This document shows, piece after piece, positions 8,185-12,800 of a DNA stretch of 64,000 nucleotides. Origin of the DNA: Streptomyces mirabilis (GTDB lineage Bacteria; Actinomycetota; Actinomycetes; Streptomycetales; Streptomycetaceae); assembly GCF_018310535.1 (NCBI RefSeq), contig NZ_CP074102.1, positions 7,254,001 through 7,318,000 of the forward strand. The letters are read 5' to 3'. The position numbers were made by a program, and so were the translations under genes. The notes below the pieces were generated by a model that had not been told where the DNA came from, ran no database searches, and was given only the letters and a program-made list of their open reading frames with translations. Position 1 is the stretch's first letter. Each line of letters opens with the position of its first letter.

Positions 8185-8649
8185 CTACGCCGACCAGTCG
8201 GCCGTGCGCGCCTTGCGCAGCCAGTACATGGCCGACAGCGGCAGCAGCACCGGGATGAACAGATAGCCGATCCCGTAGTCCGACCACACGGTGGCGTCGG
8301 GGAAGGCGGACGGCTCGACCAGCGTCCAGGTCCCGACGGTCAGCACGCCCAAGAGCTCGGCGGCGCAGCACACCAGCGCCGCCCTGCGGGCCGTTTCACC
8401 GCCGCGCACGAGTGAGTACGTGATGAAGCCGTAGACGAGGCCCGCGACCGCCGACAGCGAGTAGGCGAGCGGGGCCTTGTCGAACTCCGTCGAGATCTGG
8501 ACGGCGGAGCGCGACACGGCGCCGACGACCATCACGCCGTACAGCCAGAGCAGCAGCATGCCCGGGCCGCTGATCAGCCGGGTGCGCTTCTTCTCCGGGT
8601 TCTCCCGCCTCTCCTGAGGCGCGGTCCCGTTCTCCTCCGTGGCCGTCAT
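8185..8649 (-). CDS. Integral membrane protein (DUF3817-like)
   Basis: 154-residue protein with a charged cytoplasmic N-terminus rich in Glu and Lys and four hydrophobic segments (LLLWLYGVMVVGAV, LAYSLSAVAGLVYGFITY, ALVCCAAELLGVLTVGT, YLFIPVLLPLSAMYWL). The pattern resembles DUF3817 membrane proteins. Its ATG is one base after the stop of the upstream gene on the same strand, so the two are translationally coupled. Function unknown. Confidence 0.75.
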   Translation of the reverse strand: MTATEENGTAPQERRENPEKKRTRLISGPGMLLLWLYGVMVVGAVSRSAVQISTEFDKAPLAYSLSAVAGLVYGFITYSLVRGGETARRAALVCCAAELLGVLTVGTWTLVEPSAFPDATVWSDYGIGYLFIPVLLPLSAMYWLRKARTADWSA

Positions 8650-8650
8650 C

Positions 8651-9010
8651 TCAGCCTCCCCAGATGTCATAGAGCCGCACCTCCAGTACGGCGAGGACGA
8701 CACCGCCGGCCGCCACCGTGATCGATCCCCAGCGGGTGCGCTCCGCCAGCGACATGAAGCCCGCGGCCGGAATGCACGCGAAGGCACCGAGCAGATACGC
8801 CACGAAGATGGTCGTGCCCTGGTCGGGCTTCTCGCCGCGCGCCAGCTGGACGATGCCGACCACCAGCTGGATCAGGGCGAGCAGCGTCACCACGGCCATG
8901 CCGATGAAGTGCCAGTCCTTGGTGGGCTGATCACGGTAGGCGGCCCAGCCGCACCAGGCGGCGAGCGCGAGCGCGGCGACGGCGGTCGCGACCGTCAGGG
9001 CATCAAGCAT
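8651..9010 (-). CDS. Integral membrane protein, unknown function
   Basis: 119 residues, almost entirely membrane: four hydrophobic helices including ALTVATAVAALALAAWCGW, GMAVVTLLALIQLVVGIVQL, FVAYLLGAFACIPAAGFM and SITVAAGGVVLAVLEVRL. First gene of a two-gene membrane-protein operon with the DUF3817-like gene (one-base gap). It diverges from the HAD gene, whose start is 69 bases away, so both promoters lie in that short gap. Confidence 0.78.
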   Translation of the reverse strand: MLDALTVATAVAALALAAWCGWAAYRDQPTKDWHFIGMAVVTLLALIQLVVGIVQLARGEKPDQGTTIFVAYLLGAFACIPAAGFMSLAERTRWGSITVAAGGVVLAVLEVRLYDIWGG

Positions 9011-9079
9011 GCCGTGACCCTATTACGGGCCAAAAGGCCCGGTGCCCTCGCCCCCGGGCTGCCCCGTAGGGTCGAGAGC

Positions 9080-9727
9080 ATGAAGATCCACGCTGATGCC
9101 CTGCTGTTCGACAACGACGGGACGCTCGTCTCATCCCTCGAGTCGGTGAACCGGTGCTGGACACGATGGGCGCGCGAATACGGGATCACCGCGGAGGACT
9201 TCGCCCGGATCGAACTGCACGGTCGCCCCGCCGTCGAGATAGCCGCCGACCTGCTGCCCGCCGACCTCGTCCCCGAGGCGCTCGCGCGCATCGAACTGCT
9301 GGAGGTCGAGGACGTCCCCGGCGGCGTCGTCCTGCTCCCCGGCACCGCCGCGTTCCTCGACTCGCTGCCGGCCGACCGCTGGGCCGTCGTCACGTCCGCC
9401 ACCCGTCGACTGGCCGAGGCCCGGCTCGCCGAGGTCGGTATCCGGCCCAAGACGCTGATCTCCGCCGACGACATCACCCGCGGCAAGCCCGACCCCGAGC
9501 CCTACCTCCTCGCCGCCCGTGAACTGGGTGTCGACCCGGCCCGTTGCGTCGTCTTCGAGGACGCCCCGGCGGGCCTGCAGGCAGGTCGCGCCGCCGGGAT
9601 GACCACCGTGGCGTTGGCCACAACCCACGAGGCGTCCGAGCTGGACGCGGACCTCGTGGTGAAGGACCTCTCGGCCCTGTCCGCACTGGTCACCGGCGGG
9701 GGAGTGGAGATCTCCACCCGCGGCTGA
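9080..9727 (+). CDS. HAD-superfamily sugar-phosphate phosphatase-like
   Basis: 215-residue haloacid dehalogenase hydrolase of the beta-phosphoglucomutase/DOG1 type. Motif I is FDNDGTLV with the Asp nucleophile near residue 11, motif II VVTSA, motif III in RGKPDPEPYL, motif IV VFEDAPAG; an alpha-helical cap lies between motifs I and II. Likely dephosphorylates a small sugar phosphate, substrate unknown. ATG 9080 follows GGTCGAGAGC. A perfect inverted repeat follows the stop at 12 bases. Confidence 0.88.
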   Translation: MKIHADALLFDNDGTLVSSLESVNRCWTRWAREYGITAEDFARIELHGRPAVEIAADLLPADLVPEALARIELLEVEDVPGGVVLLPGTAAFLDSLPADRWAVVTSATRRLAEARLAEVGIRPKTLISADDITRGKPDPEPYLLAARELGVDPARCVVFEDAPAGLQAGRAAGMTTVALATTHEASELDADLVVKDLSALSALVTGGGVEISTRG

Positions 9728-9738
9728 GAGGTGTCCAC

Positions 9739-9761
9739 CGCTGTCCGTCATACGGACAGCG
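9739..9761. promoter_or_regulatory. Ten-base-arm inverted repeat before metNIQ leader
   Basis: Arms CGCTGTCCGT and ACGGACAGCG are perfect complements around a three-base CAT spacer. It could end the HAD transcript, but it lacks a T-tract and lies about 40 bases upstream of the leader-peptide start, where a repressor of sulfur genes might bind. I cannot decide between the two. Confidence 0.5.
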
Positions 9762-9800
9762 CTTCTGGGTCCCGCCTGTACGTCTGCTTTACTTGATCCC

Positions 9801-9887
9801 ATGACCACGACGAGCAGCCGCATCCTTGCGACCGAGGCGACCATGACGCCCGGTGCTCGTTGTATGTGTCGAATGTGCGCCTTCTAG
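9801..9887 (+). CDS. Cys/Met-rich leader peptide of metNIQ (putative)
   Basis: 28-codon ORF, or 14 codons from the internal ATG at 9843 that has a GAGG five bases upstream. It ends ARCMCRMCAF: three Cys and two further Met codons within the last eight codons before TAG. It lies about 215 bases upstream of a methionine transporter and is followed after 22 bases by a stable hairpin. This is the layout of a translation-dependent attenuator sensing charged tRNA-Cys or tRNA-Met. Cysteine-rich leader peptides in front of sulfur genes are known in actinobacteria; the function here is inferred. Confidence 0.65.
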   Translation: MTTTSSRILATEATMTPGARCMCRMCAF

Positions 9888-9909
9888 AGGGCCCCTGCAC
9901 CACCGCCCC

Positions 9910-9931
9910 GTCTCGCGCCCCGAAGCGAGAC
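9910..9931 (+). promoter_or_regulatory. Hairpin downstream of leader peptide, candidate attenuator
   Basis: Perfect seven-pair stem GTCTCGC/GCGAGAC with an eight-base loop, 22 bases after the leader stop codon. The rest of the 170-base untranslated stretch to metN has further GC-rich pairing and no open frame of note. It lacks a T-tract, so it may act with Rho or by hiding the metN initiation region. Confidence 0.45.
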
Positions 9932-10102
9932 CGCCGCGCCCTGTCCGTACCCCGTACGTGAGCGGCGTCGCCCCGCGCGCATGTTCTCCCCCGGATTCAT
10001 CCGGTTCCATCGCCACCGCGAGAACCGTGTCGCGTTCCCGACCGAATGCACCCGTGCCGGCGCACACCCGCGCCCCGCACTCGACAGTGACGGAAACCCC
10101 CA

Positions 10103-11137
10103 GTGATCACGACAACGGGCCTCACCAAGGTCTACCGCTCGCGCGGCCGTGAAGTGACCGCCCTCGACGGCGTCGATCTGCATGTCCGCGAAGGCGAGGT
10201 GTACGGCGTCATCGGCCAGTCCGGCGCCGGCAAGTCCTCCCTCATCCGCTGCGTCAACCTTCTGGAGCGTCCCACCGCCGGCACGGTCACCGTCGCCGGA
10301 CAGGACCTCACCGCGCTCGCCGGCCGCGGCCCGCGCGCGGGCAAGGAACTCCGCCAGGCCCGCAGCCGTATCGGCATGGTCTTCCAGCACTTCAACCTGC
10401 TGTCCTCGCGCACCGTGCAGGACAACGTCGAGCTGCCGCTCGAAATCCTTGGCCTGTCGGGGAAGGAACGATCCTCCAAGGCGCTCGGGCTGCTCGACCT
10501 GGTCGGTCTCTCCGACAAGGCCAAGGCCTACCCGGCCCAGCTCTCCGGCGGCCAGAAGCAGCGCGTCGGCATCGCCCGCGCCCTGGCCGGCGACCCCAAG
10601 GTGCTGCTCTCCGACGAGGCCACCAGTGCCCTCGACCCCGAGACCACCCGCTCCATCCTCCAGCTGCTGCGCGACCTGAACCGGCAGCTGGGCCTGACCG
10701 TCCTGCTCATCACCCACGAGATGGACGTCGTCAAGACGATCTGCGACTCGGCCGCGCTCATGGAGAAGGGCCGCATCGTCGAGTCCGGCACCGTCAGCGA
10801 GCTGCTCGCGACCCCCGGCTCCGAACTCGCCGGGGCACTCTTCCCGGTGAGCGGCGAGCCGTCCGGCGACGACCGCACCGTCATCGACGTCACCTTCCAC
10901 GGCGAGGCCGCCACCCAGCCCGTCATCTCGCAGCTCTCGCGCACGTACAACATCGACATCTCGATCCTCGGCGCGGCGATGGACACCGTCGCAGGCAAGC
11001 AGGTCGGCCGGATGCGCATCGAACTGCCCGGCCGCTACGAGGAGAACGTCGTGCCGATCGGGTTCCTGCGCGAGCAGGGCCTGCAGATCGACATCCAGGG
11101 CCAGCAGCCCGTACTCGTGAAGGACGGCGCCAAGTGA
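10103..11137 (+). CDS. metN: Methionine ABC transporter ATP-binding protein
   Basis: 344-residue cytoplasmic ATPase of the MetNIQ importer for methionine. Walker A GQSGAGKSS (~residue 38), Q-loop VFQHFNLL, signature LSGGQKQRVGIARAL, Walker B VLLSDEATSALD and H-loop LLITHEMD are complete. The last ~85 residues form the NIL domain (IDVTFHGEAA...), which binds methionine and mediates trans-inhibition in this family. GTG 10103 gives a normal N-terminus though its ribosome-binding site is weak. Its stop overlaps the metI start in GTGA. Confidence 0.95.
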   Translation: MITTTGLTKVYRSRGREVTALDGVDLHVREGEVYGVIGQSGAGKSSLIRCVNLLERPTAGTVTVAGQDLTALAGRGPRAGKELRQARSRIGMVFQHFNLLSSRTVQDNVELPLEILGLSGKERSSKALGLLDLVGLSDKAKAYPAQLSGGQKQRVGIARALAGDPKVLLSDEATSALDPETTRSILQLLRDLNRQLGLTVLLITHEMDVVKTICDSAALMEKGRIVESGTVSELLATPGSELAGALFPVSGEPSGDDRTVIDVTFHGEAATQPVISQLSRTYNIDISILGAAMDTVAGKQVGRMRIELPGRYEENVVPIGFLREQGLQIDIQGQQPVLVKDGAK

Positions 11138-11871
11138 CCTGGTCGGAGATGCAGCCCCTGCTGTCCCAGGCGTGTTGGGACACGCTCTACATGGTCGGCT
11201 GGTCCACGCTGATCGCGATCGTCGGCGGTCTGCCGCTCGGTGTTCTGCTCGTCTTGACCGACCGCGGCGGACTCCTGCAGAACGTCGTCGTGAACAAGGT
11301 CATCGGGCAGGTCGTGAACATCGCCCGCTCGCTGCCGTTCATCATCCTGATGGTCGCGCTGATGAACTTCACGCGCACGATCACGGGAACGACCATCGGA
11401 CGCGAGGCGGCGATCGTGCCGCTCGCCGTCGGCGCGATCCCCTTCTTCGCGCGCCTGGTCGAGACCGCGGTCCGCGAAGTGGACGGCGGTCGCGTCGAGG
11501 CCGTGCAGTCGATGGGCGGCAACACCTGGACCGTCGTGCGCAAGGTGCTCGTACCGGAGTCGCTGCCGTCGCTGATCTCCTCCGCGACCACCACGATCGT
11601 CGCCCTCATCGGCTACTCCGCGATGGCCGGCACCGTCGGCGCCGGCGGGCTCGGCGACATCGCCATCCGCTACGGCTACCAGCGCTTCGAGACCGGACTG
11701 ATGTGGATCACCGTGGCGATCCTCGCGGTCGTCATCTCGCTCATCCAGTTCGCCGGCGACTACGCGGCCCGCACCCTGCACCGGCGCGGCGGCCACTCCG
11801 GTGCCGCTCCGAAGCTGCGGCTGCTGAAGGCCAAGGAGCCCGCCACCGCGGAGGTCGGCAAGGTCGCCTGA
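11134..11871 (+). CDS. metI: Methionine ABC transporter permease
   Basis: 245-residue inner-membrane permease with five or six helices. The EAA coupling loop is seen as EAVQSMGGNTWTVVRKVLVP (about residues 126-145). Starts at GTG inside the metN stop (GTGA), so it is translationally coupled. The C-terminal ~30 residues are a charged Lys/Ala-rich tail beyond the last helix. The lipoprotein gene metQ follows after 98 bases. Confidence 0.95.
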   Translation: MTWSEMQPLLSQACWDTLYMVGWSTLIAIVGGLPLGVLLVLTDRGGLLQNVVVNKVIGQVVNIARSLPFIILMVALMNFTRTITGTTIGREAAIVPLAVGAIPFFARLVETAVREVDGGRVEAVQSMGGNTWTVVRKVLVPESLPSLISSATTTIVALIGYSAMAGTVGAGGLGDIAIRYGYQRFETGLMWITVAILAVVISLIQFAGDYAARTLHRRGGHSGAAPKLRLLKAKEPATAEVGKVA

Positions 11872-11969: not shown

Positions 11970-12800
11970 GTGCGTAACACCGCCAAGATCACCACCGCAG
12001 TCCTCGCCGCCGGAGCCCTCACCCTCGGCCTCTCCGCCTGCGGCTCGGACAAGAGCAGCAGCGCCTCCGACACCAGCGGTCCGCTGGTCGTGGCCGCCAG
12101 CCCCACCCCGCACGCCGAGATCCTCGACTACATCAAGGACAACCTGGCGAAGAAGGCCGGCCTCGACCTGCAGGTCAAGGAGTTCACGGACTACGTCACG
12201 CCGAACACGGCGACCGAGGACGGGTCCGTCGGCGCCAACTACTTCCAGAACCAGCCGTACCTCGACGACTTCAACAAGAAGAACGGCACCCACATCGTGC
12301 CCGTCGTCACGGTCCACCTGGAACCGCTCGGTCTCTACTCCCACAAGATCAAGAAGACCGACGAGCTCAAGAGCGGTGCGACGGTCGCCGTCCCGAACGA
12401 CACGGTCAACGAGGCGCGGGCGCTCAAGCTGCTCGCCTCCAAGGGGCTCATCACGCTCAAGGACGGCGCGGGCAACAGCGCGACCACCCAGGACATCGCG
12501 AAGAACCCGAAGAACCTCAAGTTCAAGGAGCTGGAGGCGGCCCAGACCCCGCGCTCCCTGGACGACGTCGACGCCGCGGTGATCAACGGCAACTACGCCA
12601 TCTCCTCCGGCCTCAAGCCGGCCAAGGACGCGCTCTTCCTGGAGTCCGCGACGAACAACCCCTACGGCAACTTCCTCGCCGTCAAGAAGGGCAACGAGAG
12701 CGACCCGCGGGTGAAGAAGCTCGCCAAGCTCCTCACCTCGCCCGAGGTCAAGAAGTTCATCGAGGACAAGTACGCCGGTTCGGTCATCCCGTCGTTCTAG
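11970..12800 (+). CDS. metQ: Methionine-binding lipoprotein
   Basis: 276-residue NlpA/MetQ substrate-binding protein of the importer. A lipoprotein signal ends in the lipobox LSAC (Cys near residue 22), after which a Ser/Asp linker and the mature two-lobed domain begin. Family segments include VVAASPTPHAEILDYIK, TEDGSVGANYFQNQPYLDDF and INGNYAISSGLKP. GTG start with AAGGAAAGG upstream. The stop-codon region is tandemly duplicated and followed by a strong terminator, so metNIQ ends here. Confidence 0.95.
   Translation: MRNTAKITTAVLAAGALTLGLSACGSDKSSSASDTSGPLVVAASPTPHAEILDYIKDNLAKKAGLDLQVKEFTDYVTPNTATEDGSVGANYFQNQPYLDDFNKKNGTHIVPVVTVHLEPLGLYSHKIKKTDELKSGATVAVPNDTVNEARALKLLASKGLITLKDGAGNSATTQDIAKNPKNLKFKELEAAQTPRSLDDVDAAVINGNYAISSGLKPAKDALFLESATNNPYGNFLAVKKGNESDPRVKKLAKLLTSPEVKKFIEDKYAGSVIPSF

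Follow-up and report, generated by a model that had tools for sequence, protein, structure and literature searches.

What does the short, cysteine- and methionine-rich reading frame in front of the metNIQ genes do, and how might it act on methionine uptake? We studied it in the window, that is, the whole stretch of 64,000 nt that was analysed (G000:C1:7254001-7318000), part of a 9.6-Mb Streptomyces genome (Table 1). Sequence comparison indicates that a leaderless Cys/Met leader known in one species is present across the sampled family, together with a predicted conserved fold and a putative operator. The earlier note on this DNA had described the main elements correctly. Three Cys and two Met codons lie among the last eight sense codons of the frame encoding MTTTSSRILATEATMTPGARCMCRMCAF, the stem behind it folds stably and is separated from metN by 171 bases, and Pfam and NCBIfam profiles recognised MetN, MetI, and MetQ, with MetN and MetQ scoring above the Pfam cut-offs (ABC_tran plus NIL; Lipoprotein_9) and below the curated NCBIfam ones. 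The note had also seen no SAM riboswitch, and an Rfam scan of positions 8500-11500 at E ≤ 5 gave only three chance-level matches (E 1.1-2.7, far below gathering), so a known SAM riboswitch is absent from the region upstream of metN.

Table 1. Positions of the features in and around the metNIQ leader, numbered within the window.
Feature	Position	Strand	Details
Dyad operator TGTCC-N7-GGACA (putative)	9742..9758	.	Centre near -50 from leader ATG
Extended -10 box TGCTTTACT	9785..9793	+	TGnTTTA(C/A)T pattern
Leaderless leader ORF (metL), 28 sense codons	9801..9887	+	Encodes MTTTSSRILATEATMTPGARCMCRMCAF; S. lividans orthologue; in-frame length changes only
RNA three-way junction (predicted)	9807..9863	+	P1 9807-9815/9855-9863; P2 9819-9821/9828-9830; P3 9831-9834,9836-9839/9847-9854
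Cys-Met-Cys-Arg(CGA)-Met-Cys codons	9861..9878	+	Codon counts in 116 leaders of 28 residues
Conserved GAGGGCCCC	9887..9895	+	Overlaps last stop-codon base; mostly invariant or ≥ 90% kept in alignment A2
C-rich, G-poor 5'UTR, 215 nt	9888..10102	+	C 46.0%, G 26.5%
Hairpin GUCUCGC-GCCCCGAA-GCGAGAC	9910..9931	+	Stem 9910-9916/9925-9931
Conserved GCACTCGACAGTGACGGAAA at metN ribosome-binding region	10077..10096	+	Near-invariant columns in alignment A1 (70 sequences)
metN, GTG start 10103	10103..11137	+	ORF and profiles
metI	11134..11871	+	ORF and profiles
metQ	11970..12800	+	ORF and profiles

The region upstream of metN was matched in 194 of the 199 sampled Streptomyces genomes, which places the element beyond chance. 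We took 130 of these 194 loci for analysis and added 18 of 80 loci from a MetN search (L031-L047 and L103, among them two Kitasatospora and one Actinomadura), the other 62 lying mostly outside Actinomycetes. In these 148 loci, a pattern script picked up the leader 147 times; it missed only the Actinomadura locus, L046, whose leader reads MTAARSCLAHRSLTQRAGRMCCRRMCDR. To avoid judging easy cases alone, 28 hand-picked genomes, weakest or unmatched, were searched with the MetN protein. A match at E ≤ 1e-100 was obtained in 22 of them and was absent in six Streptomyces genomes (G022, G044, G079, G110, G112, and G145; the G079 assembly is just 78% complete). Three of the 22 loci were cut by contig edges, and all 19 judgeable ones carried the leader; 41 of the 199 Streptomyces genomes lay outside this locus-level examination. 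A search of family f1, taken to be that of Streptomyces because the nearest named MetN loci (L031-L042 among them) belong to this genus, matched 33 genomes, from which 30 loci were used, five from Streptomyces and 25 from other genera (L216-L240), and the leader was present in all 25 of the latter. Altogether, it was found in 192 of 195 scanned metN loci (the Streptomyces family plus one Actinomadura), the remaining three being those cut by contig edges. The 191 peptides tallied below (132 distinct, L046 left out) may include one strain sampled twice, as L043 and L232 look identical. There was no leader directly before metN in four other actinobacterial loci scanned (L048, L091, L101, and L106); in L101, a Cys-rich ORF lies farther upstream, at about 1.2 kb.

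The way in which the leader varies bears on whether it is read. The distance from its ATG to the CGAATG motif ranged from 66 to 90 nt and was a multiple of three in 147 of 147 loci, and in 170 of 170 after 23 loci of other genera were added. The spacing from stop codon to hairpin fell into the three phases 90/27/26 times in the 143 loci where the loop was found. The script chose open ORFs, so that a frameshifted leader would escape it; among the 148 loci only L046 escaped. Stop codons were TGA in 97, TAG in 73, and TAA in none of the 170 loci. From the frame-keeping length changes and the stop switching, we argue that the ORF is read and, as far as comparison can tell, evidently translated. 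The earlier note had offered a 14- or a 28-codon reading, of which the longer one stood: the conserved -10 pattern TGnTTTA(C/A)T ends 6 or 7 nt before the 28-codon ATG in 185 of 191 loci (the pattern missed the other six). The shorter one, starting at codon 15 (9843), was rejected, as ATG occupies this codon in just 55 of 116 leaders of 28 residues. At the other end, the distance from the CGA codon to the end of the stop codon was 18 nt in 146 of 147 loci, and one codon less in L224, L226, and L321-L323. This near-constancy suggests that a stalling position relative to the stop codon matters.

We then counted the codons in the 116 leaders of 28 residues, a set that includes Kitasatospora L044, which is out of register. 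Cys was present at codon 21 in 112 and at codon 23 in 109, Met at codon 22 in 106, and both CGA at codon 24 and ATG at codon 25 in all 116; codon 26 was Cys in 79 and Arg in 37. This is not what the earlier note had predicted, namely conserved Cys and Met codons amid synonymous drift, since synonymous sites are frozen over much of the ORF, which the folding of its RNA probably explains, and codon 26 is so often Arg. Changes to other residues outnumbered synonymous ones at codons 21, 23, and 26 (48 versus 11); thus, single Cys codons are not strongly held. The last 14 residues as a whole contained Cys in 191 of 191 loci and Met in 190, with one to six Cys interleaved with Met and Arg. This Cys/Met-rich tail persists in other genera while the remaining peptide diverges, and in some it is longer and richer, such as CRRMCRSCQICRMCGC in L238. 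The tail of one Streptomyces locus, L309, is CRCCTCAR, with four Cys and neither Met nor CGAATG, which suggests that, of the two signals, Cys is the more essential. Regarding the amino acid that is mainly sensed, we consider Cys at least as likely as Met. TGT accounted for 344 of 522 leader Cys codons versus 2 of 9 in six nearby genes, a small control.

Leaders of related composition were also found in other families. In family f19, a MSRASSDTARFVTTAPSGRGMCMRPCPMRMRRCH-type ORF lies upstream of metN in seven of eight loci (L270-L275 and L277), and L276 has a different, longer Met/Cys ORF. The L270 leader ends about 140 nt before a metQ-like ORF (named by reading, not by profile), which is followed by metN, and L271-L275 share the same downstream gene start. 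A TTTGGAGACCAnTGGTCCA-like dyad immediately upstream of the f19 leader ATG was noted in six loci. Family f17 has a Cys/Met-rich ORF in two of eight loci (L260 and L262) and none in L259, L261, and L263-L266. No such ORF was found in L267 (f3) or L268 (f28), and the one in L269 (f28) is doubtful.

The predicted three-way junction lies within the coding sequence, and transcript residues 7-63 fold with an MFE of -29.9 kcal/mol (z -4.76). We aligned 45 of 96 distinct sequences; those of Kitasatospora, L217, and L229-L240 start differently and were not alignable. In this alignment, 96.3% of cells were paired, compared with 24.9-49.1% when the partners were slid. Eleven cells were changed on both sides, at pairs 7-63, 14-56, and 39-47, a number reached in none of 500 shuffles; the number of pairs with two-sided change, three, was reached in 37 of 500. 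RNAalifold returned nearly the same pairs with a small covariation term (-0.11). Because most pairs hardly vary and P1 is partly broken in L115, L134, and L228, the support for the junction comes down to few events. The variable codons 6, 8-9, and 14-15 sit in the junction or its loops. The near-frozen synonymous sites, the junction with some compensatory pairs, and the want of an Rfam match could be taken to mean that the ORF is incidental and that control is mainly the work of a structured RNA, either a riboswitch or a protein-binding site. However, no measured length change breaks the frame (170/170), the stop codon alternates between TGA and TAG, and the Cys/Met tail is retained in other genera amid divergence, and we regard this reading as highly improbable. 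It is distinctly unlikely, too, that the ORF-embedded junction works as a sensor or timing device in its own right, with one RNA reading Cys and Met charging by way of the ribosome and a second signal by way of its fold. If it were, methionine import would be gated by both sulfur amino acids, and coding sequence, regulatory codons, and conserved RNA fold would be one object.

Downstream of the stop codon, alignment A2 comprised 41 of 50 motif-found sequences (61 loci were tried and 11 missed), including Actinomadura L046; the selecting motif itself demands CGAATG plus the hairpin loop. GAGGGCCCC and the hairpin were widely conserved, in L046 too, and deviations were seen in L042, L044, L147, L220, L226, L232/L043, L234, L236-L240, and L315. 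The hairpin has a folding energy of -12.8 kcal/mol (z -4.0 versus 200 shuffles), and in L003 and L004 a T-A pair of its stem is replaced by C-G. Model R1, built on the post-stop part and used with strict filters, matched 14 of 148 class genomes at E ≤ 0.01, namely 11 Streptomyces with one strong match each and three others with weak ones; G000 and G359 had an additional weak match. A search of this genome for a second copy of the element gave this locus as the top match of both R1 and R2 (E 2e-16 and 5e-22), followed by matches of 24.7 bits (E 0.007) and 19.9 bits (E 0.37), respectively.

Classical trp-type transcription attenuation, in which the 9910-9931 stem would be the terminator, calls for just this order of leader, stem, and gap; the stem itself is both stable and conserved, and the comparison of frame and tail points to a translated leader with regulatory codons. 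Nevertheless, the stem has no T-run, and no terminator-like (intrinsic) site was found in 9600-10250. Nor did we see mutually exclusive pairing, judging alternatives by eye, since the P1 pair G14-C56 is changed to A14-U56 in seven of 45 sequences and the downstream stem stays unchanged in most such genera. Moreover, a terminator would not require a loop as frozen as GCCCCGAA. Pairing of the P1 strands (CGAG/CUCG) with the downstream stem was considered by eye and dropped, as it amounts to 4 bp and lacks covariation. We therefore judge this mechanism very improbable. The earlier note had recognised the layout of ribosome-mediated attenuation, and one half of that proposal is supported: the frame kept in 170 of 170 loci, the persistent Cys/Met-rich end, and the differently built f19 leader in seven of eight loci argue for a translated regulatory leader tied to methionine uptake. 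The missing terminator-like site and the P1 changes unmatched by the downstream stem speak against the other half, classical attenuation.

Near the metN start, other genera retain GCACTCGACAGTGACGGAAA only in part. Judged by eye, 10077-10096 could form a small CACU-CGAC-AGUG hairpin, which some genera lack. Polycysteine leaders of mycobacteria, as described by Canestrari in 2020, reportedly act through a stalled ribosome that makes the start of the downstream gene accessible. Translational attenuation of this type or of the LEU type would have the codon region pair near the metN start until a stalled ribosome frees it. Indeed, the leader sequence UGUCGA is complementary to UCGACA at 10081-10086, and 115 of 145 Streptomyces loci carry the two together. 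With a stalled ribosome in the model, the UCGACA stretch becomes more open, its value going from about 0.3 to 0.6. However, 24 of 25 leaders without TGTCGA still keep the target TCGACA, so the long-range helix is not maintained, and we rejected it. We likewise rejected an opening of the metN start itself (-15 to +5) by the stalled ribosome: in full-length thermodynamic folds, which ignore co-transcriptional order, of 73 genomes (every second of the 145), its mean openness was 0.461 free versus 0.463 stalled, with a rise in 38 of 73. A ribosome at the stop codon (0.462) had about the same modelled effect. Translational attenuation thus appears unlikely.

Upstream of the -10 box, TGTCC-N7-GGACA with up to two mismatches occurs in 176 of 191 loci, compared with 10 of 191 upstream regions after one mononucleotide shuffle each. 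Its starts cluster at -57 to -60 (149), -66 to -69 (23), and -79 (4), and these 10-bp steps look like those of a protein site held on one helix face. The TCC-N7-GGA part presumably fits the T-N11-A box of LysR-type regulators. A separate activator or repressor probably binds this dyad, whose conservation makes other control likely and suggests that promoter control may dominate. It is thus doubtful that the leader is the main control of methionine uptake, as the earlier note had thought it might be. Elsewhere in this genome, the dyad gave 12 matches in all, three exact (this locus, L241, and L243) and nine with one mismatch, versus four for a reversed control. Three of the other sites were inspected. 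The exact match at L241 lies at the 5' end of a leuB-like ORF, and that at L243 inside an ORF. A one-mismatch dyad at L250 1501-1517 falls in what looks like coding sequence, some 0.4 kb ahead of the metK RNA, and could be due to chance. That RNA, RF03063, is directly before a metK-like gene (L279; L250, G000:C1:7365782-7365898) and bears the Rfam name Streptomyces-metK, and RF03076 is named Streptomyces-metH; relative to these, a table in PMC8079986 swaps the two names.

The comparisons support a translated frame, a leaderless layout, a Cys/Met-rich end, a link to methionine uptake, and an embedded junction. As the best explanation, we propose that stalling at Cys/Met codons of the leaderless leader probably controls metNIQ, perhaps through Rho. 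The transcript would begin at A9801 or at a neighbouring base, with immediate translation of the first 87 nt. Under shortage of Cys-tRNA, and probably of Met-tRNA, the ribosome would halt within the Cys-Met-Cys-Arg-Met-Cys codons that lie shortly ahead of the stop; such stalling on uncharged tRNA seems quite likely. An unstalled ribosome would terminate at 9885-9887 and expose 215 nt of C-rich untranslated RNA, on which Rho, or another factor at GAGGGCCCC plus the hairpin, could end transcription before metN. A stalled ribosome would prevent this. The C-rich, G-poor untranslated RNA that a Rho-type step calls for is present: C exceeds G in 170 of 170 UTRs compared, and just 0.86% of 215-nt window segments on both strands are as skewed toward C over G. 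This fits suggestively with a Rho-type output step, which we hold to be plausible but short of probable. Against stalling and Rho stand the weak retention of single Cys codons and the presence of the f17 ORF in just two of eight loci, and this model leaves the apparently frozen junction inside the ORF unexplained.

The core of the finding is already known, because metL (SLIV_29928; MSTTSDRTPATEATTTPGARCMCRRMCAF), a leader before metNIQ, was published in the reannotation of S. lividans TK24 (PMC8079986). There, its leaderless start was taken from RNA-seq, and termination was left unclear. The same peptide is encoded in L122, L124, and L136, and the two systems agree in having a leaderless leader before metNIQ with hairpins but without a typical terminator. 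The metL passages of that paper speak of methionines and threonines, not of cysteine, and describe no three-way junction, operator, or phylogenetic spread. In the open-licence literature searched, we found no other account of the leader, nor any of the folded RNA, the wide conservation, or the cysteine side.

Among other systems, actinobacterial Cys-codon leaders without terminators, and a LEU element, have been reported with Rho proposed (PMC1262725), and our leader resembles them in lacking a terminator. In that study, no conserved RNA structure was reported for the regions preceding methionine operons, whereas we find a conserved fold here; in contrast to the LEU element, pairing of the codon run with the ribosome site is not maintained. 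The leader offers a clean, genus-wide case for how terminator-less actinobacterial leaders work. The polycysteine leaderless short ORFs of mycobacteria, which PMC9094748 and PMC13236596 present by citing Canestrari 2020 and which had a forerunner in Shell 2015 (PMC4633059), are likewise leaderless and first in their operons, with Cys codons near the end, as far as these sources describe them. They differ in that Cys here alternates with Met and Arg, that the operon is for methionine uptake, and that our folds give sequestration of the metN start no support. If our proposal is correct, control by cysteine charging would not be confined to mycobacterial cysteine synthesis but would also cover methionine uptake in the genus Streptomyces and the rest of its family, exerted through a leader in which Cys and Met codons are mixed and part of which also forms a conserved RNA fold.
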